In this document: piece by piece, positions 5,213 to 56,567 of the stretch
Numbering within the stretch: the stretch's first letter is position 1
Layout: every line of letters starts with the position of its first letter
NCBI RefSeq assembly: GCF_040183065.1
Contig: NC_091132.1
Coordinates: forward strand, 162,276,602-162,340,601
Length of the DNA stretch: 64,000 bases
From: Periplaneta americana
Lineage: Eukaryota > Arthropoda > Insecta > Blattodea > Blattidae
Direction of reading: 5' to 3'
Notes under the pieces: generated by a model
The model's database searches: none
What the model was told of the DNA's origin: nothing
What the model saw: the letters and a program-made list of their open reading frames with translations, nothing else
Program-made: the position numbers and the translations under genes

Positions 5213-5573
5213 CAACTATTTCAAATATAGTAAGTCAAAATATGCAGCAATGGAAAAAGGTGCTCTAAACTATAGTAAAAGGAAAAACTTAACTAGTATT
5301 ATAATGATTTTTATTAATTTGCAGGGATCCCTTTATAGCCAACAGAGGCAAGTTCCGAAGGTTTCTAAAAAAATGTTTCCTTTATGAAACTTATGCAGGT
5401 GTTTCCACTTTGTGCCACTAGCTCCAAATAACATGCCGTAGTTATGAATTGTTTTGAGCTGCTTTTTTTTTTCCCCCAAGATAATACGTCATTGTAGTAC
5501 ATTATGCTTAATATAGTCGAACTTCACCGCATTGAGTATTGAGCACTCTAATTTATTTTTCTTTTCATATCAG

Positions 5574-6540
5574 GATTGTGAATATTGTTGAGAATCGTCT
5601 GTCACAAGAATGCGCTAGTGTTCATCGTGAAGAAGACCAGTTGACACAGTGTGGTAACCACAGTGGTGACAATTCAAATATTAGTAACATAAATCATAGT
5701 TCTATCAAATTTAATTTAAGCAATGAGGTTTTTGTAACACCTCAAACACTGAATGTTCATTTTGACGTACCTGCAGACAAGACGTCGTTCCAGTGTGATG
5801 TCTGTGGGAAGAATTTTTTTAAATCAAGTGACGTAAAGAAGCATGCAATCTTTCACACTGGCGGGAAGCCGTATCATTGCAATGTGTGTGGGAAGTCATT
5901 TAGAAGATCCTGGAATTTCAAGGTTCATGCACGTATGCATACCGGGGAGAGACCATTCAAATGCGAGGTGTGTGGAAAATCTTACTTACAATTGGCAGGA
6001 TTAAAGAAACATTTGCTGATACACAGCGGCGAAAGGCCTTTCAGATGCCAAGCTTGTGGGAAGTGTTTCTCTCAGAAGGAACATTTGAAGAATCATGCAC
6101 GGATACACACAGGCGAAAGGCCATTCAATTGCAAGGTGTGTGGCAAGCGTTTCACGGAAAAATGTCATTTAAGTACGCATGCACGCATACATACAGGGGA
6201 AAGGCCGTTTAAGTGCGAAGTTTGTGGGAAGTGTTTTTCGGAAAATGGATGGTTACGCAGGCATGCTCGGGTACATTCTGGCGAGAGGCCATTCAAATGC
6301 AATGTGTGTGGGAAGTGTTTCACTCAATCCGGGCACTTACGTAAACATGCACGCATGCACACGGGCGACAGGCCATTCAAATGCGAGTTGTGTTTGAAGT
6401 GTTTCACACAATCGGGACACTTACGTAAACACTCACGCATGCACACTGGCGAAAGGCCATTCAAATGCGAGGTGTGTGGAAAGAATTTCATAGATAAGGG
6501 CCATTTAAGAACCCATGCCCGTATACATACACGTAATTAA
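5574..6540 (+). CDS. Zinc-finger unit A, terminal exon with nine C2H2 fingers
   Basis: The exon begins after TCAG at 5573; its first G completes the Arg codon of the previous exon. After about 75 residues of linker (IVNIVENRLSQEC..., weakly conserved with unit B) come nine consecutive C2H2 fingers starting at about 5790, of the C-x2-C-x12-H-x3-H type joined mostly by TGERPF linkers, which mark sequence-specific DNA binding. Predicted contact residues (-1,2,3,6): KSDK, RWNV, QAGK, QEHN, ECHT, EGWR, QGHK, QGHK, DGHT. Fingers 7 and 8 have the same contacts, suggesting recent finger duplication. The stop TAA follows HTRN where the linker Arg should be, and finger-like sequence continues in frame to about 6590. 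Role inferred: nuclear DNA-binding regulator, target unknown. No KRAB, ZAD or BTB domain is seen in the exons present. Confidence 0.9.
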
Positions 6541-23080: not shown

Positions 23081-23599
23081 GAAAGCTATGTAATACACAT
23101 TCAGAAGTGATACAGTGTTGAAAATTGTGTAATCAAGGTGTATGATTGATTTCATTTTAATTGTGTATTAGTTTGGGGAAATGCAATCTGTATTTAAGTT
23201 AAATTACAATTAGTTAATTTCGTATCATGATGGTAAAAAATGCTCTAAATATTACAAAAAATAAAGTAAGTCAAAATATACGACAATTGAACAAAGTGCA
23301 CAAAACTATAGTAAAAAAGAAAATTTTAAATATTATTAAATCGAATCTTACAAATTTGGAGGGATCCCTTTATAGCCAACAGAGCCACGTTCCAGAGGTC
23401 GTTCAAAAGTTTCGTTTATAAAATTTATTCAAGTGTTTCCATTTTGTGCCACTAGCGCCAGCTAACATCCCGTAGTTATGAATTGTTTTGAAGTGCTTCT
23501 TTCAAAATAATACGGAATTGTACTACATTATGCTTAATATATTTTGACTTCACTGCATTGAGTATTGTGGACTCTAATATTTTTCTCTTTTCATGTCAG

Positions 23600-24482
23600 G
23601 TTTGTGAATATTGTTCAGAAGAGTGTGTCCCAAGAATGCACCGGCGTAAACCATGAAGATGACCATTTGACACAGTGTGGCAGCCAAAATGGTGACAGTT
23701 CAAATATTAGTAACATAGACCATAGTTCTATCAAATGTAATTTATCCAATGAGGTTTATGTAACAGCTCAAACACTGCAAGTTCATTCTGATATACATAC
23801 AAACAAAAAGTCGTTCCAGTGTGATGTCTGTGGGAAGAATTTTTTTAAATTAAATGACTTAAACAAGCATGCCGTCCTTCACTCCCGCTGGAAGGCGTAT
23901 CATTGCAATGTGTGTGGAAAGTCATTTAGATACACATGTAATATCAAGATTCATGCACGTAAGCACACTGGGGAGAGACCATTCAAATGCGAGGAGTGTG
24001 GAAAATGTTTCTTTGAATCGGGAGTTTTGAAGAAACATTCACGGATACACACAGGCGAAAGGCCATTCAATTGCAAAGTGTGTGGCAAGAGTTTCACGGA
24101 AAGTGGCCATTTAAGCACCCATGCACGGATACATACAGGCGAAAGGCCATTTAAGTGCGAAATGTGTGGGAAGTGTTTTTCGGCAAAAGCAGGGTTACGT
24201 AGGCATGCTCGGGTACATTCTGGTGAGAGGCCTTTCAAATGCGAGGTGTGTGGCAAGGGTTTCATGGAAAGGGGCCATTTAAGTACCCATTCACGCATAC
24301 ACACAGGCGAAAGGCCATTCAAATGCGAGGTGTGTGACAAGTGTTTCATGGAAAAGGGCAATTTAATTACACATTCACGCATACATACAGGCGAAAGGCC
24401 ATTCAAATGCGAGGTGTGTGGTAAGTGTTTCAGTGAAAAGGGCCATTTAAGAAGCCATGTTCTCATACATACACGCGAATGA
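23600..24482 (+). CDS. Zinc-finger unit B, terminal exon with eight C2H2 fingers
   Basis: After TGTCAG at 23599 the exon completes Arg, runs through a linker (FVNIVQKSVSQEC...), then eight C2H2 fingers from about 23818 joined mostly by TGERPFKCE. Contacts (-1,2,3,6): KNDK, YCNI, EGVK, EGHT, AAGR, EGHT, EGNT, EGHS. Compared with unit A it lacks one finger (A4-like) and differs in most contact sets, so the paralogues probably bind different sites. The five exons sum to 1332 nt, 443 aa. The TGA stop replaces the linker Arg after HTRE, and more fingers continue in frame beyond it. Predicted nuclear DNA-binding regulator; target unknown. Confidence 0.92.
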
Positions 24483-35049: not shown

Positions 35050-35985
35050 AGTTAATCACGCCTGCGGATCCATTTCTCAAGCATATCTCATACATGTTCG
35101 ATAGAATTTAAATCTGGAGACATTGCTGGCCAATCCATTACAGGAATTTCGTGTTCGTTCAGAAAGTTCATGAAATCTGCAGCAATGTGGGATGTCGCAT
35201 TGTCACTCATTATAAAAATCCAGCACCCATACCTTCCATTACGGGCAGAACATGTTGCCGCAATATGTTCTCCACATAAGCGATTGCATTTAGCCGGCCA
35301 GGAACTACGACCAGGGCTTCTGAGCTGATACCAGCCCAGACCATAATTGACCCCCACCAAATCTGTCAATTTCAAGAATGTTGTGTTCAATGAGACGCTC
35401 TTCACGACGTCTCCAGACACGTACTCGTCCATCAAATGAAGTCAGAGAGAACCTTGATTCGTCTGTGAACAGTACTTGCCTCCAATGCCGAAGTTGCCAA
35501 TTTACATGTTCCTGAGTGAATCTTAACCTTGCTCGCTTGTGATGAACCTCCAAATGAGGGGCATGTAGAGGTCTCCGAGCTCTCAAATTAGCTTCCTGCA
35601 ATCTAATCCTGACCGTCTGGTCACTTACTGCTTTTCCATGTACTAACCTGAGGTCATTTTGCGGGCAACGAGCAGTTCATGTAGGCTGATGCAGACCAGA
35701 AAGAACTAAAAATCTGTTCTCATTTCTAGTACTGTTATTGCAAGTTATCTCGAACCTTACATCCCCTAAGCATGCCTCTCGAACTGCTCGGTACGGCATG
35801 TACTCATCAACATAATGGCATGGCAAGGCTGCCACCCTCTCAGGTAACGTGACTCTTTTCAGAAAACATTGGTTCTTTCACTTTACGGGTCTCTTGGTTC
35901 ACTACAGACATCGTCATCCCACGACACTCCGGTTTTGAGAGGGGAACGTGGTTTCGTAGCAGGTTTTAATTAACTTGTAAAGACT
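35050..35985 (-). mobile_element. Tc1-type transposase relic
   Basis: On the minus strand a first frame (about 35601-35305) reads RLRFTQEHVNWQLRHWRQVL then FTDESRFSLTSFDGRVRVWR, the first catalytic Asp region. After a frameshift near 35320 a second frame reads IFIMSDNATSHIAADF (second Asp) and DWPAMSPDLNSIEHV (SPDLNPIEH-like, final Glu), and then hits TGA where WD should follow. Sequence on to 35985 probably belongs to the N-terminal part but is unreadable. Frameshift and stop make it inactive. Confidence 0.8.
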
Positions 35986-36242
35986 AAGGCCCAGTTGCAG
36001 AAACACTGATCAAAATATGATTGGCGATCAAGGAGGGTTTGATTGGCCATCAGTTCTATTTCTGTTGCAGAAAGAACAATCAGTATTTGATCGGAGATCA
36101 GTCTTCCGTCAGATTTGATCAACAGATTTTCGCTGGTTAAGTGACTGATCACTGATCAAGTATATGTTGTTCTGTTCATTGTGCGTACTGTAATTTATAT
36201 AACAATTAGTTACAGCGTAATAATATTGTTTTCGACGTAGTA

Positions 36243-37328
36243 ATGGATTCTTCTGATGAAGAAATTTTCGAACAATATGAAGAAATATTATTAAGAAGAC
36301 GGCATTTCCGCGACAGACATGAATTGTTTTTTATGTATAATGAGAGAGAATTTGAACAAAGATTTAGGTTAAGTAAGGATTCGTGTGTTTTTTTACTTTC
36401 GAAAATTGAAGCAAATATATGCAGACAGACAAATAGAAACTTACCACTTTCTCCTATGAACCAACTTCTAATAACGCTGCGATTTTATGCTGTCGGAACT
36501 TTTCAAGCGGTCTTGGGTGATCTTGTTGGGGTCCACAAATCAACTATTTGCCGAGTAGTAAGGGATGTTACACATGAAATTGCTTTGCTTTCGCAGGATT
36601 TCATAAAGCCTCCAACCTCAGACAGGGAACGACTTGAAATCCAGAGAGAATTTTCAGCCATGTCAGGATTTCCAAGAGTCATTGGATGTATAGATTGCAC
36701 TCACATCCCCATCCAATCACCTGGTGGAAATGACGCTGAACTTTATCGCAATAGAAAAGGTTTCTTTTCTGTGAATGTACAGGCAATATGTACACCATCA
36801 TTGAAATTCTGGAATGTTGTAGCCCGTTGGCAGGGTTCTACACATGACAGCACAATATTTTTAATGAGTAGGTTACGAGCTCAATTCGTAAACAGAGAGA
36901 TGGGAAATGGAATTCTTTTGGGTGATGGAGGCTATGCATGTTCAAATTTCTTGTTGACTCCCCTAGCAAACCCCACGACAGAAGCAGAAGAGTTGTATAA
37001 TTCAACACATATATACACTCGAAACTGTATAGAGCGAGCATTTGGCGTGGTAAAAAGAAGGTTTCCATGCTTATCGTTGGGTCTCCGTTTCAAGTTGGGA
37101 AGGCAACGATCAACAACACTAGAATGTATTGTTGCATGTTTTGCCATCCACAATTTATTGTTGGAGAGAGGAGAAAATAATCCCCCACCTCCTGATGAAG
37201 ATCTCATTGCAAGATTCTACCCACAAGCTGATGAGGGTGAAGCACCTATGGGAAGAAGGAGAAATGGAGGGAACACAGTCAGAACTACACTAATAAATAC
37301 ACACTTTACAACACTGGCAGAAAGGTGA
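36243..37328 (+). CDS. HARBI1-like DDE transposase (PIF/Harbinger nuclease)
   Basis: A single-exon 361-aa frame, the full family length. The N-terminal half carries a helical DNA-binding region with a helix-turn-helix-like VHKSTICRVVRDV (about 98-110). The nuclease domain follows: GCIDCTHIPI (first Asp, about 147-156), GILLGDGGYACSNFLL (second Asp, about 226) and IERAFGVVKRRFPCL (Glu, about 262), the DDE triad of PIF/Harbinger. LYRNRKGFFSVNVQAIC and the C-terminal HNLLLERG are also characteristic. In this superfamily the nuclease needs a Myb-like partner to enter the nucleus and bind ends; the candidate partner is encoded convergently 50 bp away. The start is the first ATG after the TIR region. 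No damage seen. Confidence 0.93.
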   Translation: MDSSDEEIFEQYEEILLRRRHFRDRHELFFMYNEREFEQRFRLSKDSCVFLLSKIEANICRQTNRNLPLSPMNQLLITLRFYAVGTFQAVLGDLVGVHKSTICRVVRDVTHEIALLSQDFIKPPTSDRERLEIQREFSAMSGFPRVIGCIDCTHIPIQSPGGNDAELYRNRKGFFSVNVQAICTPSLKFWNVVARWQGSTHDSTIFLMSRLRAQFVNREMGNGILLGDGGYACSNFLLTPLANPTTEAEELYNSTHIYTRNCIERAFGVVKRRFPCLSLGLRFKLGRQRSTTLECIVACFAIHNLLLERGENNPPPPDEDLIARFYPQADEGEAPMGRRRNGGNTVRTTLINTHFTTLAER

Positions 37329-37378
37329 GCAAAATACTCGTAATTAATTAGTTCTTTTATTTTTGATGCAAACTTTAT

Positions 37379-37798
37379 TTATTTATTTTCTTTGGCTAGA
37401 ATTGCCCTTTTAATCTCTAACTCTACTTGGGCCACTTGTAGATTAGTTTTTAAAATTTCCATTTCCATTTCATGTTTTTCGATCAGAAGTCGACACCTTA
37501 ATTCATTAAAATCAGTTTTACTGGACGTATAGTCTTCCAGCCTGCTTCTTTGTGATCTTGATCTGGGCCTAATTATTCCACTCCTGCTTCCTGTCAGTGG
37601 GTTTATTGGTGTAATTTCTGATGACAGATGACGACCTGCTGACAATGAATCTTGTTGATTTGCAGAAGACGGGGACGGCGGAATAGATGAGGCCTCATCT
37701 CCATATTTGTCCCCATTGACATCATGACCAGAAGTTGAATGCAAACGAGCAGGGTGCACTATAGACACAGCTCCATCAAATAAAGTTTCATGGCTATC
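37379..37798 (-). CDS. Harbinger Myb/SANT-like partner protein, exon 3 (C-terminal)
   Basis: On the minus strand the acceptor TTTACAG precedes GATAGCCATG. The exon encodes 139 residues and a stop. The first part is Ser/Pro-rich low complexity; the end (SSKTDFNELRCRLLIEKHEM to the stop) is a charged helix likely to be coiled coil for pairing with itself or the nuclease. Joined phase 0 to exon 2. Confidence 0.82.
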   Translation of the reverse strand, partial: DSHETLFDGAVSIVHPARLHSTSGHDVNGDKYGDEASSIPPSPSSANQQDSLSAGRHLSSEITPINPLTGSRSGIIRPRSRSQRSRLEDYTSSKTDFNELRCRLLIEKHEMEMEILKTNLQVAQVELEIKRAILAKENK

Positions 37799-38142
37799 CT
37801 GTAAAACAAGATGAAGTATACAATATAAATACACAAACTGGAAAGTTATTTGTTTTGTGTTTGAACTGAATGGCACTATTTAGCCGAAAAATTTCCTTAA
37901 TTTTTTTTGTTAATGTATTGTTGTTTGCTGTGAGCTGGTTTCTTATAAAATAGGGTTATAAGACTGTAAATAAATTAAAGGCAAAATGAAGTTCATCTAC
38001 TCCAATTATATTTCCATTTCACCACCTCAATCGATATTTTTATATTCTGAGTGATGGGATGATGATGGATAATGTAGATGGATATTTTTTACTTTTTTTA
38101 GGCCTACCCAAATTATGTCAAACTAAGGTTATATATTCTTAC

Positions 38143-38313
38143 CTCCAGTATATTGCAATCCTGTTCTGTTACTTGAAAAACTTGGTACTGGCCATCACTG
38201 TCACAAGGATTATTCACAGGTGCAAAATGGGAATTCAGCCTGGATATTAGTCTTTCGCCATCTGCATCTAGCTTCCTTTTAAAAGTTCCTCCACCAGTTT
38301 TGTAGAGCTCTGC
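38143..38313 (-). CDS. Harbinger Myb/SANT-like partner protein, exon 2
   Basis: 57 codons, phase 0 both sides, between TTTCCAG|GCAGAG and CTGGAG|GTAAGA on the minus strand. It begins AELYKTGGGTFKRKLDADGE, a segment that commonly follows the Myb/SANT domain in these proteins. Confidence 0.8.
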
Positions 38314-38493
38314 CTGGAAAAAAACAAAGATTCAATGTAGATCAAGAAACTAGTTAGAAGAAAATAATTATGAATTTAAATCTCCCTCTATATTTTTGAG
38401 ACGTAATAATATTTATGGAATGCCACAAAAACGTAACTGTCCATTAATAAATCTAGAAATAGGTAAAAATTATACGTCACAGCTTAGGCCTAC

Positions 38494-38757
38494 CTTATCG
38501 TCAGCTGCAAGTTTCTTGGTTCTCCTTTTGTAGTTTTCATATGCAATCTTTAATTGCTGGGGTGTTCTTGCGACCTCATATGTAGCTTCATTAAATTCTG
38601 AAGCAATTTTCTTCCAGGCCTCCTCTTTCTGCTTCACCCAAACACTATCTGTCTTCTTATTTTCAATGATATGCATAAAGCTCTCTATGATGTTCAATAA
38701 GAGGGCTCTATCATTGTCAGAAAAATTGGGCCCCCTTACGTTTTTTGTTTGCTTCAT
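38494..38757 (-). CDS. Harbinger Myb/SANT-like partner protein, exon 1 (DNA-binding domain)
   Basis: From the ATG at 38757, MKQTKNVRGPNFSDNDRALL starts a trihelical Myb/SANT-like domain (W40, W48 and VARTPQQLKIAYENYKRRTK as the recognition region). 88 codons, donor AAG|GTAGGC. The three exons give 284 aa. The P element is inserted in the target CTTCATAG, which contains this start codon, so the ATG survives but the Harbinger promoter and 5' UTR are now 3.4 kb away beyond 42200. The frame also opens upstream into the P TIR (from 38847), but unit logic favours 38757. Confidence 0.85.
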
Positions 38758-38989
38758 AGCATGGTGGAAACATAGTAGAGGTGTGGGACAAGCTGTGCGT
38801 GTTTTCGTTCGGTCTGCGCATGACGTCACCTTTACTGCAGGCCGCACTCGAATGACACAGTCTACATAACAGATTGTTGATGGTTAGATCTGCGTCCATA
38901 GATTTAAATGAATAAATAAAAATCATTGTTTGTGTATTCAGTAAATATTGACAGTATATATAATAGGGTCTACCTTGAAGTGATAACAT

Positions 38990-39590
38990 TATAAAATAGA
39001 GATCAATAAATTAAATTCAAGAGTCAAGAAATAATGTAATATGGTAGTGCAACGTTAATAATTGCCTTCTTTAATATACACGTACTTTTATAATTATAAT
39101 ACATTATGCTACAGATATGCACAAAATTAGGCCCATATATCACACACATTATACTACACACGAATTCAAGTACAACGGGAACTTCCTTGAAATGATAACG
39201 TAATAAAATTATGATCTATTACATATTAAACTCAAGTTTCAAGAAACAATGTGATATGGCAGTATGTCATTAATAATATTGCCTTCTGTAATATACACGT
39301 GGTTTTATAATAATTACAATACAATGTGTAATAAATATATACATACTTAGATCTATACAGTTATTTATAACATACATTATTTTGTACATGAATTCAAATA
39401 CTTTTGAACCTTCATTAACATAAGTATATGAATTTCTTGGAATAATTTGTCATTATAGTAAACAAATATTTTTATATATTCAGGCTATTGGAGACATAAT
39501 ATAGTCTACTACATTATTTACCTTATTATTCCACACACGACATAATATAATTTCACCATTATAAATCCCACTCTGTTAAGTAAATACTAA
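38990..39590. other. Noncoding 3' part of the P element
   Basis: AT-rich. An imperfect duplication is visible: AATATACACGT..TTTATAAT and CAAGAAAYAATGTRATATGG occur at about 39025-39095 and 39237-39312. No frame. Confidence 0.5.
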
Positions 39591-39593
39591 TTC

Positions 39594-41811
39594 TTATGCA
39601 ATCTTTTTCATTTTCTTTATAACATTTCTCTTTGAAATTCCAGACATTTTTATTATTTTATTAATTTCTTTAATTCTAATAAATGTTTTTGTTCTAACCA
39701 ATGTCGTATTTACTTCTGGCGGAAGAGGAGAACTGATTTCTGCTTCGTTTTTCATGGCAGAATTAATCAAATTTACAGTCTTTTTTATTATAAATTTCTC
39801 ACGAGAAACAGAATCTCCGTGCACATCTGAGAATATACTGTCAACAAGCATGGCAACCAATTGCAGATCCTTAGAAGGGAGAATAAAGTTTCCACGGGAC
39901 ACTGTAGTAATCCAGTCTTTTTGATTAGCAGAAGTTGACAATTTTGTGGGAATTCCAAGATTCGGGTATTGCTCCATATGTTTTGATGCAGCATATCCTG
40001 CAATATATTTTAATCCTTCCTGGGATATCCGCTGTCTTGCAGAGATTTCATATATTTTTTCTGGGAGACCTATATTTTCTTCAGGATCTCGATCGTTGGT
40101 AAATTTAACCGGTTTCAGAATGCCTTTAAGAAATTCTGCCGTTGCACATAGTTCTTTCTGCAGATTATCATTGACTTCTGATTGGCTTGTACTAGGACCC
40201 ACTATTAATGCCTCTTCTTCCGAAAGCAAATCGGAGGTGTTTTTGTTCTCACAAAACTGAGGTAATGGATTTCGACCTAGTATGTACCACTTCAGTGTAT
40301 GTTTAAAATCTAAAGCAGAGGGATGATCGTTTGTTCTACCCATGCTTCTAATTTCCGAAAAAAAGTTTTCTACCAGATCTTGGTTAAGTTTTCTTGTGAT
40401 GATGTATTCAATTTTGTACTTATACCTCATTGCCTCATACAAAAATGTTAATGATTTATTATTTATTAGAATCCTCTCCTGATAAGGTAATTTCCTGTTT
40501 GCTTCTCCTAATTTAACTGTGGTCACGAAGTCATTCATTTCTGAGAGTATAATATTCTGATCTTGAAGGTTTATTCCGTAACTATGCAGCCCACGGTGGG
40601 TACCGAATTTAGAAACGGTATTAAATAAATCAAACCAATCATTAGTTAATTTTATTGCCTTTGAAGTTTCATTCCATTCATTTGATCTCAACAGCTCGTT
40701 TTCACCACACCATTTCAAGGCCTTTGCAACTCTGTTGGAAAATAATTGTGCTGCCAAACTAACTTTTTGTCTTTGGGTACCACGGACACTTTAGTGTAAA
40801 GGAGTTAACTTGTAAGCTAATTTTGTATCAGAGGACGAGGATGCACGTAAAAGTTCATGAATTGGTTCTGATGAAATGTTCAATCCGTTCAAGTTGAAAC
40901 CATGATCTAGAAAGTGATTCCTGTGTAATTTCAATAAATGTGGAGCGTCTGAAAAAACAAATATTTCTCGAGTTGAATCATTTGGATTAGGAAAACTGCA
41001 ATTTAGTTTGGTAGAAATTTTCAAATCACGCCACAATTTTCTGTTACTTCCACCTAAATCGCTAACTGTGGCCACAACTTGAAAACCACTGCCTTCTAAC
41101 TGGCACATTATGTCTGTTAGGATTTATTTTGTCATTGTCTGTTCATATTTATAGTATACGGGCTGCTTCCACCTTGCAACCTGCACTGCCTTATGAGGTC
41201 CAATTATTTGTTCTTCCCTACTGTCAAAAGAAATCTCCTCATTTAAATACATTTCATCAAATGCTAATACTGTTACACGATCTAACTCCGACATATTTGT
41301 AGCTCTCGCCTTCATTAATTTTAAGACATCATGAAGTACACCTTCCTCAAGCGATAATTGTTTTACTGCCCATTTTCTCAGAGTTGACAAATCAGGTAAC
41401 GGGTAATTTAATTTTGTTCTTAAGTATCGGTATGTTTTTGGACTTAGGTTTCGAAGTGTTATTGCAGTACCGTAATCTTCTACAGACCATTTCACCCTAC
41501 GTGTTTTATTCAAAAGAGCATCAATTTGCCCAATAGTGAAAAATGGTTTCAAAATTTCAGCCACTTTAGATTTAACTTCTGTTTGTCTAATGTTTTTCAA
41601 TGAAATTAAATCCTAATGTAATTTTCTTTTGTCTTCTTCATGTTTCCTGTTGGCAGCTGTCAATTCCTTAATCCTCGTTTCTAGAGAGTAATTCTTCTCT
41701 TCTAATTCTTGAATTCTTTGTATTAGTATTTGGCATTCCTCTGTGACAGTAGACTCAGTGGCTCCGCGATTTTCCATTGTTACATTAGTGCTGGATGCTC
41801 CTGTTGCGCTG
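39594..41811 (-). pseudogene. P-element (THAP9-like) transposase pseudogene, three nonsense codons, no frameshift
   Basis: On the minus strand, from an acceptor TTACTTCAG at 41812, one frame runs about 740 codons to a normal stop after KKMKKIA. It is broken only by TAG (41615-41613), TAA (just after YKYEQTMTK, about 41124) and TAA (after YKLTPLH, about 40791). Order: coiled coil (IQRIQELEEKNYSLETRIKE), then VLAFDEMYL (first Asp region), SDLGGSNRKLW and FSDAPHLLKLHRNHFLDHGF, which match P/THAP9 RNase-H blocks, a GTP-binding-like insertion region, and QDLVENFFSEIRSMG (Glu region). Catalytic positions look kept, so loss came through point nonsense changes. THAP domain not found. Inactive as read. 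Confidence 0.88.
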
Positions 41812-42200
41812 AAGTAAAAGAAAGTTAATAGGTACAGTAGCCTACATGCAATCAGGGGCGTATTTAGGCCTCGGCAGACTAAGCAGCTGCCTAGGATGGC
41901 AGATTTGAGGGAGCGACTTTTAAGCTATTACTGTTAATTTTTTATTTGTTTTTTAAATTTTATTCATAACTCTTTTAAAGAGTACATGAACTTAAACGCA
42001 CAATGAAAAGGATATGAATAACATTGGCAACAATCAGTTCAAATTATGTATTGTAATTAATGTCTAGTTAGGTTTATTAAAGAAAATGTACTCAACGCAA
42101 TGAGCTGCGATCGCTGTCTGCAGTAAAGATGACGTCACACGCCTCGGCCGCTATCGCAACAGCATGCGCAGTCCCACACCTTTACTATGTTTCCACCATG
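41812..42200 (-). other. 5' noncoding end of the P element
   Basis: It contains GGGGCGTATTTAGGCCTCGG..GCAGCTGCCTAGG (about 41860-41900), which looks like another dispersed repeat inserted where the THAP exon would be expected. Right TIR at 42181-42200. Confidence 0.5.
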
Positions 42201-42517
42201 CTTCATAGTCTATACAAATACAATCCGCTGTTTCCCTTCTACAAAAACAACAAAACAGCAAAGCATTCACTTGTTTTCCTATTCACCGCCTACTAGATGC
42301 ATACGTTTCGCGACTGTAAAAGAGCATCAAATTGGCTGTGGTTGCTAAATAGCGATGTTGTCAAATGTTTTTCTTTCTCAAATCAACAATTAGTAAATTG
42401 AGACAAGTTGATTGGAGATTTACGTTTGTGCAACCCAATGAACAATCAAATAAATCAGACATCAACTGATTGGCGATCAGGGACTGATTTGATTTGCGTT
42501 TCTGCAACCGGGCCTAA

Positions 42518-43360
42518 GTATTTAAATATAATCGTGTGTACACTCCTCCTCTCTCATCCGGGCTGGGGACCGACAATGGCGGACTTACTACAGCTATTTC
42601 TATACATTATATAGGCTTACATGACTTACACCTACAGCTGATATGTACATATTTTTACATCAATATTATGATGAATATACTCTTAAGTCAACATTCGGAG
42701 GCTTGTGAGAAGCATGTCTCGTAGATGCCAAGCAGTAATTCAAGCTCATGGAGGCCACACGAGGTACTAAATTCATCTAGAGATGGTGTGAACTCATGTT
42801 TCTTAGAATAAAGAAACAGATTTTTCACTTTGTTTTGTGCAGTATCGAGTTAGATGACCATTGTTGACCACAACTTAGTTGTAAATCACCATGAAAACTA
42901 ATTTTTTATTAAACATAATGTTTGAAATTCATGCTGTAACAAGGACAACTTCCTGTGTTTTCATTGTTAAATAATGCATTAATTTAAAACCTTGTTCCGC
43001 TAATTATTGTATGCTATATGGTTCAGCAGATGTAACTTCAGTTTCTTATAAATTTGTAGCAAACCAAGATCGTACTTGGCGTGCATGTCACTCAGCTCAT
43101 GCTGTAACAGACTATATTCTGTACCATTCGTCTCTCAATCGACACATAATATGTTGGCTTGAACTGTAATTTCTAAGATTAATTTGTCATTATCTTATGT
43201 TGGCGATAATGTACCATATATACCGGTATTATCGTTATGAATTGGTTCATCAGTATTTTCATTAAATATGATATAAAATAAATTTTTATAAGTTCAAATT
43301 TAACCTCACTCTGACAAGTAATCCATTATACTTATGTTGTTCAATTACAGATGCTAATAT
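42518..43360. other. Intron DNA of unit C
   Basis: No element or gene recognised. Confidence 0.4.
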
Positions 43361-51964: not shown

Positions 51965-53037
51965 TTGTTGTTGTTGTTGTTTTCTAATGCCAGGCGTTTG
52001 ACAATAAAGTCATTTGACCTCTTGCACTCCAATATTTTTCAAAGATATTATCATGACTAGCCACTGAAGCACAGATTTTGAGGTGTTCCGAATCCATTTC
52101 TTGGTTTGAGTTGCACAATGGGCAGTTAGGGGACTGATATATTCCAATTCTATGCAGGTGTTTGGCCAAACAATCATGGCCTGTTGCCAATCTAAATGCA
52201 GCTACAGACGATTTTCGTGGTAAATCGGGAATTAACTGTGGATTTTGATGCAGAGAGTTCCATTTTTTCCCTTGCGATTGTGTTATCAAATTTTGTTTGT
52301 TGAAGACTAAATATGTAGATTTAATAAATCTTTTCACAGAGTAATACGTAGATTTAGTAACAGGTCTGTAAGTAGCAGTGCTGCCCTTCTTTGCTAAAGC
52401 ATCCGCATTCTCGTTTCCCAGGATTCCACAATGGGATGGTATCCATTGGAATACAATTCTTTTATTGAGTGATAATAATTGAGAGAGCATTTTAGTTATT
52501 TCTGCTGTTTGAGATGAAGGTGTGTGTTTAGAGACGATTGATAGAATAGCTGCTTTGGAGTCTGACAGTATAACTGCATTCCTAAATTTATTGATGTGGC
52601 ATAGAAGATTCCTGAGACATTCACTTATTGCAATGATTTCACCATCAAAACTTGTTGTTCCATATCCAAGAGATCTATAAAGTGAGAAGAGACAGCACGT
52701 AACACCTGCACCAGCACCTTGTTCTCTGGAGATCAAGGATCCGTTGGTGTATAAATGAAGCCAGTTTTGTGGAGGGTACCTAATATTAATTGTCTCTAAA
52801 GACAATTGTTTCAGTATTTCAGTGTTTACTTCTGATTTCAGTATTTCTTCTGTTAAATTTAGATTATATTCTATATTTAATAGAGTTAAAGGGTTTGGTT
52901 TAATTTGTAAGTTTCCTTTTAAATTCGGGATATTGATTTTCTGTTTTAATTCTTGGACAATGGATATGAAACTTTTTTTAGTTTTCAATCTACAAAGAGG
53001 ACTGTATGAATGCCAATTGTTACCTGGTAATCTGATA
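51965..53037 (-). mobile_element. LINE 3' part (RNase H plus zinc knuckle), with 13-bp TSD
   Basis: AGAAGAAATAAAG is duplicated exactly (51952-51964, 53038-53050). On the minus strand an open 334-codon frame (52988-51984) holds an RNase H domain: NWLHLYTNGSLISREQGAGA (normally D at YTDGS), TTSFDGEIIAISECL, AVILSDSKAAILSI and FQWIPSHCGILGNENADALA, then SVAAFRLATGHDCLAKHLHR and CPLCNSNQEMDSEHLKIC. A CAA-rich 3' tail ends it. RNase-H-bearing LINE, I/Jockey-like group. The frame is open but the first catalytic Asp is changed to Asn. Confidence 0.9.
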
Positions 53038-53040
53038 AGA

Positions 53041-53290
53041 AGAAATAAAGTACTCTAATACAGTGAAATAGATATTAATTGACTTACTAAAATTCAATTT
53101 CGCTAATGTTACCTTCACCAAAACGTTTGAACGGAGCCACCATTATCAGTCGACTATCTATGCTGGAAACAAATGACGATCGCAAAGTATGTTTTATAGT
53201 ACCACAAAGAATTTGCAGTTTGAAATGTTGCCACACACAACAAATGCTAGGGAAGTGATAAAAAATAAACAAATGCTATGGAAGTGATAA
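53041..53290. repeat. Dispersed repeat unit, right copy
   Basis: See 51640-51964. The LINE inserted inside a pre-existing tandem pair, or between two copies in direct orientation. The repeat appears to continue to about 53510 (GCATGATTGGTTGAAAGACG, TCATGAATAGGTGCCAGAAA). Confidence 0.75.
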
Positions 53291-55647: not shown

Positions 55648-56567
55648 CGAGGGGGATCCAGGAAATAACGACCGTTCGCGCATACCCGCCGCGCAGCTGA
55701 CTCCCCTTCCTTGTTTGAAGGTCAACTGGCTCCCTTAACATGTGTTCTCATAATGTTGTGAGTACTGGTTGCAACAAGTCGCCATTGTGCATTTTGTGTT
55801 ACTTCAAAATGAACGACGTGATTGATAATCCCGCCGACTGTGAGGTGAGGAGTGTGATTCGATTTTTGAATGCCCGACATTTGAAACCTGCAGAAATTTA
55901 CCGGCAGTTGAAAGAAGTGTATGGTGATACTGTAATGAATGAAAGAAATGTGAGAAAATGGTGCGAAATGTTCAACAATGGGCGAACAAATGTCCACGAT
56001 GAAACTCGACCCGGACGCCCATCACTCATCACAGAAGACCTGAAGACTAAAGTGAACGACAGAATCTTGCAAGACAGGCGCACATCACTCGACGAATTGC
56101 ATATTGCCTTTCCTGACACTTCTCGTTCTTTGCTTGGTGAAATTGTGTCGCAACATATTGGATACCACAAAATCTGTGCCCGCCCGCACATTACTGCTTC
56201 AACTCGAGAATTGCTGGATCAATTCGGTTGGGAAATCTTTGATCATCCGCCCTATAGTCCAGACCTTGCTCCTAGCGATTTTCACCTTTTCACTAAGCTG
56301 AAAGACTTTCTGGTTGGTACGCGTTTTGGAAGTGATGAAGAGTTGAAGAAGACAGTGAACACCTGGCTTAATGAACTGGCGGCAGAGGAGTATAACACGG
56401 GAATTCTAAACCTAGTGAACAGATACGACAAATGTTTAAATGTAGGTGGTGATTATGTAGAGAAGTAAAGGAAGCTTCAGTTATGTAACAGACTTTGTTT
56501 TTTCAAATAAATATATATTTTTTTAATTATTACAACAAAACGGTCGTTATTTCCTGGATCCCCCTCG
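55648..56567 (+). mobile_element. Mariner element (920 bp), internally deleted, in the foldback arm
   Basis: The TIR CGAGGGGGATCCAGGAAATA matches at both ends (and continues ACGACCGTT), flanked by TA (55646-55647, 56568-56569). It contains a transposase frame with an in-frame deletion. TIRs are nearly perfect, so the element is young and could be mobilised by an intact relative. Confidence 0.93.
55740..56468 (+). CDS. Mariner transposase with internal in-frame deletion (non-catalytic)
   Basis: The frame opens at 55740 with ATGs at 55740 and 55809; the second (MNDVIDN...) is the more natural start. Residues VIRFLNARHLKPAEIYRQLK then EVYGDTVMNERNVRKWCEMF and NNGRTNVHDETRPGRPSLIT form the paired helix-turn-helix DNA-binding part. 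After IGYHKICAR the frame jumps to PHITASTRELLDQFGWEIFD, so roughly 100 residues with the first two catalytic Asp blocks are deleted. The third block HPPYSPDLAPSDFHLF is kept. About 220 residues instead of about 345. It could bind ends but not cut; a dominant-negative effect is conceivable but unproven. Confidence 0.88.
   Translation: MCSHNVVSTGCNKSPLCILCYFKMNDVIDNPADCEVRSVIRFLNARHLKPAEIYRQLKEVYGDTVMNERNVRKWCEMFNNGRTNVHDETRPGRPSLITEDLKTKVNDRILQDRRTSLDELHIAFPDTSRSLLGEIVSQHIGYHKICARPHITASTRELLDQFGWEIFDHPPYSPDLAPSDFHLFTKLKDFLVGTRFGSDEELKKTVNTWLNELAAEEYNTGILNLVNRYDKCLNVGGDYVEK

Follow-up and report, generated by a model that had tools for sequence, protein, structure and literature searches.

How did a P-type transposon come to lie against the start codon of a gene that belongs to another transposon, and what would this mean for the gene? 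The locus is part of a 64-kb stretch of the Periplaneta americana genome (the window, meaning the whole 64,000 nucleotides analysed), and the genome searched for further copies comprises 3.23 Gb in 91 contigs. In large genomes, nested DNA transposons, the younger inside the older, are ordered by means of empty sites. The case described here is of this known and ordinary kind, though clean and clearly ordered; unlike nested insertions in general, its duplicated target happens to hold a start codon. Among the published titles returned by our literature searches, none describes a P element inside a Harbinger.

The original prediction placed a P element on the start codon of the Myb-like partner gene of a PIF/Harbinger element. 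This was borne out: the inserted sequence has P-type tips that agree at 29 of 30 positions, and the 8-bp duplication that flanks it, CTTCATAG, holds the ATG. The features of the locus, in window positions, are as follows.

35985..35987, no strand: left copy of the Harbinger target duplication TAA, by direct reading and comparison with the left flanks of six other copies
35988..38759, + strand: left arm of the PIF/Harbinger element with tip GGCCCAGTTGCAGAAAC, from inverted-tip alignment, six copies being aligned up to 38712
36243..37328, + strand: Harbinger nuclease (transposase), 361 aa, open; PF13359 DDE_Tnp_4, E 7.5e-29
37379..37798, - strand: predicted exon 3 of the Myb partner gene, from splice sites and open frame
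38143..38313, - strand: predicted exon 2 of the Myb partner gene, from splice sites and open frame
38494..38757, - strand: exon 1 of the Myb partner gene with the Myb/SANT domain (PF13873, E 2.7e-19), ATG at 38755-38757
38752..38759, no strand: left copy of the P target duplication CTTCATAG, which holds the Myb ATG; a single copy in 16/16 empty sites
38760..38789, + strand: left terminal inverted repeat of P, 29/30 identical to the right arm
38816..38850, + strand: left subterminal inverted repeat of P with TGACGTCA, 80% over 35 nt against 42108-42142
39597..41777, - strand: P transposase frame, interrupted by three stops (41613-41615, 41124-41126 and 40791-40793)
42108..42142, - strand: right subterminal inverted repeat of P, 80% over 35 nt against the left repeat
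42171..42200, - strand: right terminal inverted repeat of P, 29/30 identical to the left arm
42201..42208, no strand: right copy of the P target duplication CTTCATAG, from a sequence search of the window
42209..42514, + strand: right arm of Harbinger with the displaced Myb leader, the presumed promoter and the right tip; joins the left arm without a gap in 16/16 empty copies
42515..42517, no strand: right copy of the Harbinger target duplication TAA, by direct reading

The Harbinger and P sequences together span 6527 bp (35988-42514), and an empty Harbinger measures 3078 bp. For the 8-base-window count and the motif ranks given below, the right boundary of Harbinger was set at 42511/42512, the tip itself ending at 42514. 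Rfam, searched with 35900-42600 at gathering scores, returned 0 matches. Elsewhere in the window lie two C2H2 zinc-finger frames (5536-6540 and 23562-24482) with similar beginnings, on the same strand and 18 kb apart, as well as transposon remains at 51984-53054 and 55719-56468, namely an RNase H reading frame that we take to be LINE-like and a Mos1-type HTH. A piece just left of Harbinger (35088-35435) is presumably Tc1/mariner-like.

By its ends and its transposase, the 3441-bp sequence at 38760-42200 is an element of the P superfamily, but a defective one. Its tips read CATGGTGGAAACATAGTA(G/A)AGGTGTGGGAC and are inverted; both subterminal inverted repeats carry TGACGTCA. The minus-strand frame from 41777 to 39597 contains a transposase in four pieces with three stops between them. 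These pieces matched PF12017, PF21787, PF21788 and PF21789 above the cut-off, the families for the HTH, the GTP-binding region and the N and C parts of RNase H, and PF12596 below it, and they matched the Drosophila P transposase structure 6p5a with E 1e-33 and 4.1e-16. The 8-bp target duplication, the ~31-bp inverted tips, the subterminal repeats and a homologous transposase that contains HTH, RNase H and GTP-binding insertion domains are likenesses to the Drosophila P element, from which the window copy differs in having its transposase frame interrupted by stops. It also differs from full-length P transposase, with its N-terminal THAP domain, since an uninterrupted C2CH (THAP-type) pattern occurs in 0 of the 20 two-ended P copies (the window copy and all 19 others), in a test that reads one uninterrupted frame and is blind to a THAP exon that is split or frameshifted; the P pieces scanned gave no THAP profile match. 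Two adjacent stretches of ~210 bp (38970-39173 and 39182-39401), located past the transposase stop and before the left P end, are 72% alike. Every two-ended P copy examined (20/20) has an outward-facing CATG at both ends, which makes this a trait of the P family and means that, wherever a copy inserts, the adjoining sequence is presented with a start codon. At the left end, the outward CCACCATG is present in 20/20 copies, and the outward ATG is preceded by CCACC in 20/20 copies at the left end and 14/20 at the right.

The enclosing element retains, as originally predicted, an open nuclease and both of its ends. The tip sequence GGCCC(A/G)GTTGCAGAAAC opens the element at 35988 and closes it, in inverted form, at 42514, and a TAA flanks each end; 16 of the outer 17 bp are identical and a weaker match continues farther in (the family range is 25-50 bp). 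The nuclease is open in all seven copies read (the window and six others), and in five of the six others the protein is identical to that of the window; a PDB search with it gave 0 matches at 0.001. The Myb/SANT gene was modelled on the minus strand as three exons coding for 284 aa, with predicted splicing, and its first exon comprises 88 codons opened by the ATG inside the P duplication. PIF elements target CTWAG-type sites. The right flanks of the 16 empty copies, in which the tip is followed by TWA in 12/16 and these three bases by G in 16/16, fit such a target, and the 3-bp target duplications match in the window and in four of six other copies (mismatches in L075 and L079). The window element thus has the DDE nuclease, the Myb/SANT partner and the 3-bp target duplication that are also found, according to PMC9710019 and PMC9179366, in zebrafish Harbinger3_DR and rice PIF/Pong. 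The sole difference of kind seen from such two-gene elements is that in the window the partner gene is parted from its leader and presumed promoter by an insert.

Which element arrived first could be read from other Harbinger copies. A search with 38470-38759 (290 bp) gave 96 candidates, 40 of which were scored; among these 40, 17 places, the window included, reached at least 98% identity. All 16 others contain an empty site with a single CTTCATAG and with the two arms joined directly. When compared with the flanks of the window insert joined together (353 bases), 12 of the 16 agree at every base and the remaining four at 343-352; the outer flanks differ. The check for inserts covered these 16 places and eight of the 23 scored places below 98%. 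Within the window, CTTCATAG occurs on the + strand only at 38752-38759 and 42201-42208, and its complement at one further place, 57774. A chance duplication was considered and rejected, as the repeat is exact over 8 bp here and 18 of 20 other P copies have a perfect duplication of their own (that of L040 is off by one base). The 16 empty sites, together with the closest of the aligned P copies (L039, described below), which has its own duplication elsewhere, show that Harbinger came first and P second, the order originally predicted.

Copies of P were sought with its left 241 bp. Of the 260 candidate places found, 40 were scored, one of them being the window itself. Full-length sequences were fetched for 20 of the 39 other scored places, and 19 of these were aligned; the one left out, L054, has no right tip. 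The closest of the 19 is L039, on another contig, which differs from the window copy by 3 substitutions, a 9-bp gap and 2 extra bases; its target duplication is GGTTCAGG and its flanks are unlike those of the window copy. In the same alignment, the window copy shares two stops (41613 and 40791) with L039-L043 and one (41124) with L039 only. Stops held in common with relatives are most simply older than the jump into Harbinger, which suggests that the window P was already broken before it landed and was moved in trans by transposase from elsewhere. An autonomous P element was rejected, given three in-frame stops, shared with relatives, and no C2CH pattern. A single open stretch across the transposase region was found in 0/20 P copies, the longest being 562 codons in L052. 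The states of the window P at 38863 and 39114 were found in 0 of the 19 other aligned copies, and the Harbinger left arm, compared with six others, has one private substitution, a silent one at 36359; these two private changes in P and one in Harbinger point to both insertions being recent. Two further pairs of P copies resemble each other in their surroundings. L044 (C16) and L049 (C10) have the same duplication, AATGGAAC, with flanks ~88–93% alike, and either the same repeat spot was struck twice by P or P was copied along with the repeat. L054 and L055 are alike at 96% over 846 bp of left flank, which reflects either a longer shared repeat or a duplication.

We are therefore highly confident in the following reading: a young Harbinger at a TAA target was later hit, at the start codon of its Myb gene, by an already broken P element. 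A young PIF/Harbinger copy inserted at TAA; a P element lacking an intact transposase frame, presumably mobilised by transposase made elsewhere, then entered the 8-bp site that holds the Myb start codon and duplicated it.

Of the 8-base windows of an empty Harbinger, 12/3068 (0.4%) hold a whole start codon of either gene, a small chance but one to be read with the case having been chosen afterwards from a P family of 260 candidates, 40 of them scored. Letter counts that include the window and L049 give the P target motif as approximately GA....GTTYRAAC....TC, which is palindromic; the fly motif GTCCGGAC is palindromic too, according to PMC3276498. A target model was built from 17 other sites, leaving out L049 (which shares the site of L044), L040 and L054 (neither with a clean duplication) and the window. 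In leave-one-out scoring, 15/17 sites ranked in the top 5.3% of positions sampled from the window, the outliers being L045 at 16% and L047 at 20%. By comparison, 41% of positions score as well as the window site or better; the site ranks 1335th of 3056 in Harbinger and is the lowest of the 18 sites scored. With so poor a match, the hit is not accounted for by a preference for sequence. One explanation is that the site was chosen because it lies at an open 5' end rather than for its sequence, which would agree with the gathering of fly P elements at promoters and replication origins noted in PMC7776569. This is a single case, however; the lowest of 18 is expected by chance about 1 time in 18, and a random hit explains the site as well. 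We consider choice by 5'-end position possible, if on balance doubtful.

The start region was also compared in eight older relatives (L081-L088; 86–93% identical), hand-picked, among the 23 places below 98%, from + strand rows whose match reaches query base 288, a selection that favours copies keeping the start region. The Myb ATG is kept in 6/8. Just before it lie extra bases (17 in 6/8 relatives, 21 in L082 and 9 in L087), which the young family probably lost before it spread; the later P insertion falls where the young family is without this stretch (38755-38760). In L081 and L085 (2/8), other sequence begins ~25–30 bp upstream of the ATG. That of L081 is tRNA-Tyr-like and is perhaps a SINE. 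The idea that conservation ends at the ATG among older relatives was dropped, leaders being conserved too in 6/8. The motif-disfavoured P site and the other upstream sequence in two of eight older relatives are the basis for a broader and decidedly unlikely proposal, that the Myb leader of an active Harbinger serves as an open-chromatin landing place for other transposons, such that transposons knock out one another's partner genes but leave the nuclease usable in trans. If true, copies with only the nuclease could feed transposase-only domestication, which is reported twice in cockroaches in PMC9710019.

For the gene itself, where the original prediction expected the partner's expression alone to be lost, the insertion keeps the Myb ATG and places its leader and presumed promoter 3441 bp farther off. 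A native Myb transcript would need to cross the P element, and a transcript leaving through the P end would first meet the CCACCATG of the P tip. On the minus strand, this CCACCATG followed by CTATGAAG gives a two-codon frame, ATG CTA TGA, whose TGA overlaps the Myb ATG and whose own ATG is out of frame with Myb. As judged from sequence, little or no Myb protein would most likely be made from the window Harbinger copy; the left arm, with its one private substitution, has no decay that would confirm a loss of function. Expression of Myb might instead have been changed and not lost, driven by a P promoter or by read-through. The P transposase and Myb genes run in the same direction, so a read-through Myb message is possible; moreover, AATAAA is absent from the sense strand from the transposase stop to the left P end, and the Myb frame can be extended backwards without a stop into the P end as far as 38883. 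Against this, the same interval has one ATTAAA (39070-39075), the upstream in-frame stretch is without an ATG, and the P tip adds its out-of-frame ATG ahead of that of Myb. We regard changed expression as unlikely.

Other alternatives concern the origin of the junction. P and Harbinger could have moved or been copied jointly, the join being old and inherited; the Harbinger tips enclose the P element, and joint movement is possible in principle. Yet P is absent from 16/16 close Harbingers, and in 30 P loci that were cut out, with ~1500 bp of the left side covered at each, a Harbinger match (E 1e-10) was found in that left-side stretch at 0/29 loci other than the window. Furthermore, the window P has only two states unseen in the 19 other aligned copies, and a jointly moved element is very improbable, though a second composite may exist beyond the 40 of 96 Harbinger candidates scored. 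An assembly artefact joining two unrelated sequences is scarcely conceivable, given the exact 8-bp duplication, the complete P ends, the 0 N bases in the window and Harbinger sequence on both sides that matches the empty sites (identical over the 353 bases in 12/16). The original prediction had itself named joint movement and an assembly break as threats, and neither showed itself in these counts or in the N-free window.

With Harbinger struck by a broken P element, what would be lost locally may be supplied from elsewhere. In rice and zebrafish, movement requires both the Myb-like protein and the nuclease, as stated in PMC9710019. An intact Myb gene is present in other, near-identical copies, so the nuclease and tips of the window copy are probably usable in trans, and supply of the partner protein by other Harbinger copies is the natural expectation; for the same reason, any local loss probably matters little genome-wide. 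The window P probably no longer works as a transposase gene and might travel with Harbinger, should the latter move. The locus would be a natural knock-out of half of a two-gene transposon, clean and open to ordering. At least 16 close copies that escaped the hit serve as controls within the same genome, which would allow a direct test of trans complementation. The locus also records two transposon families that were mobile recently in a single large genome.
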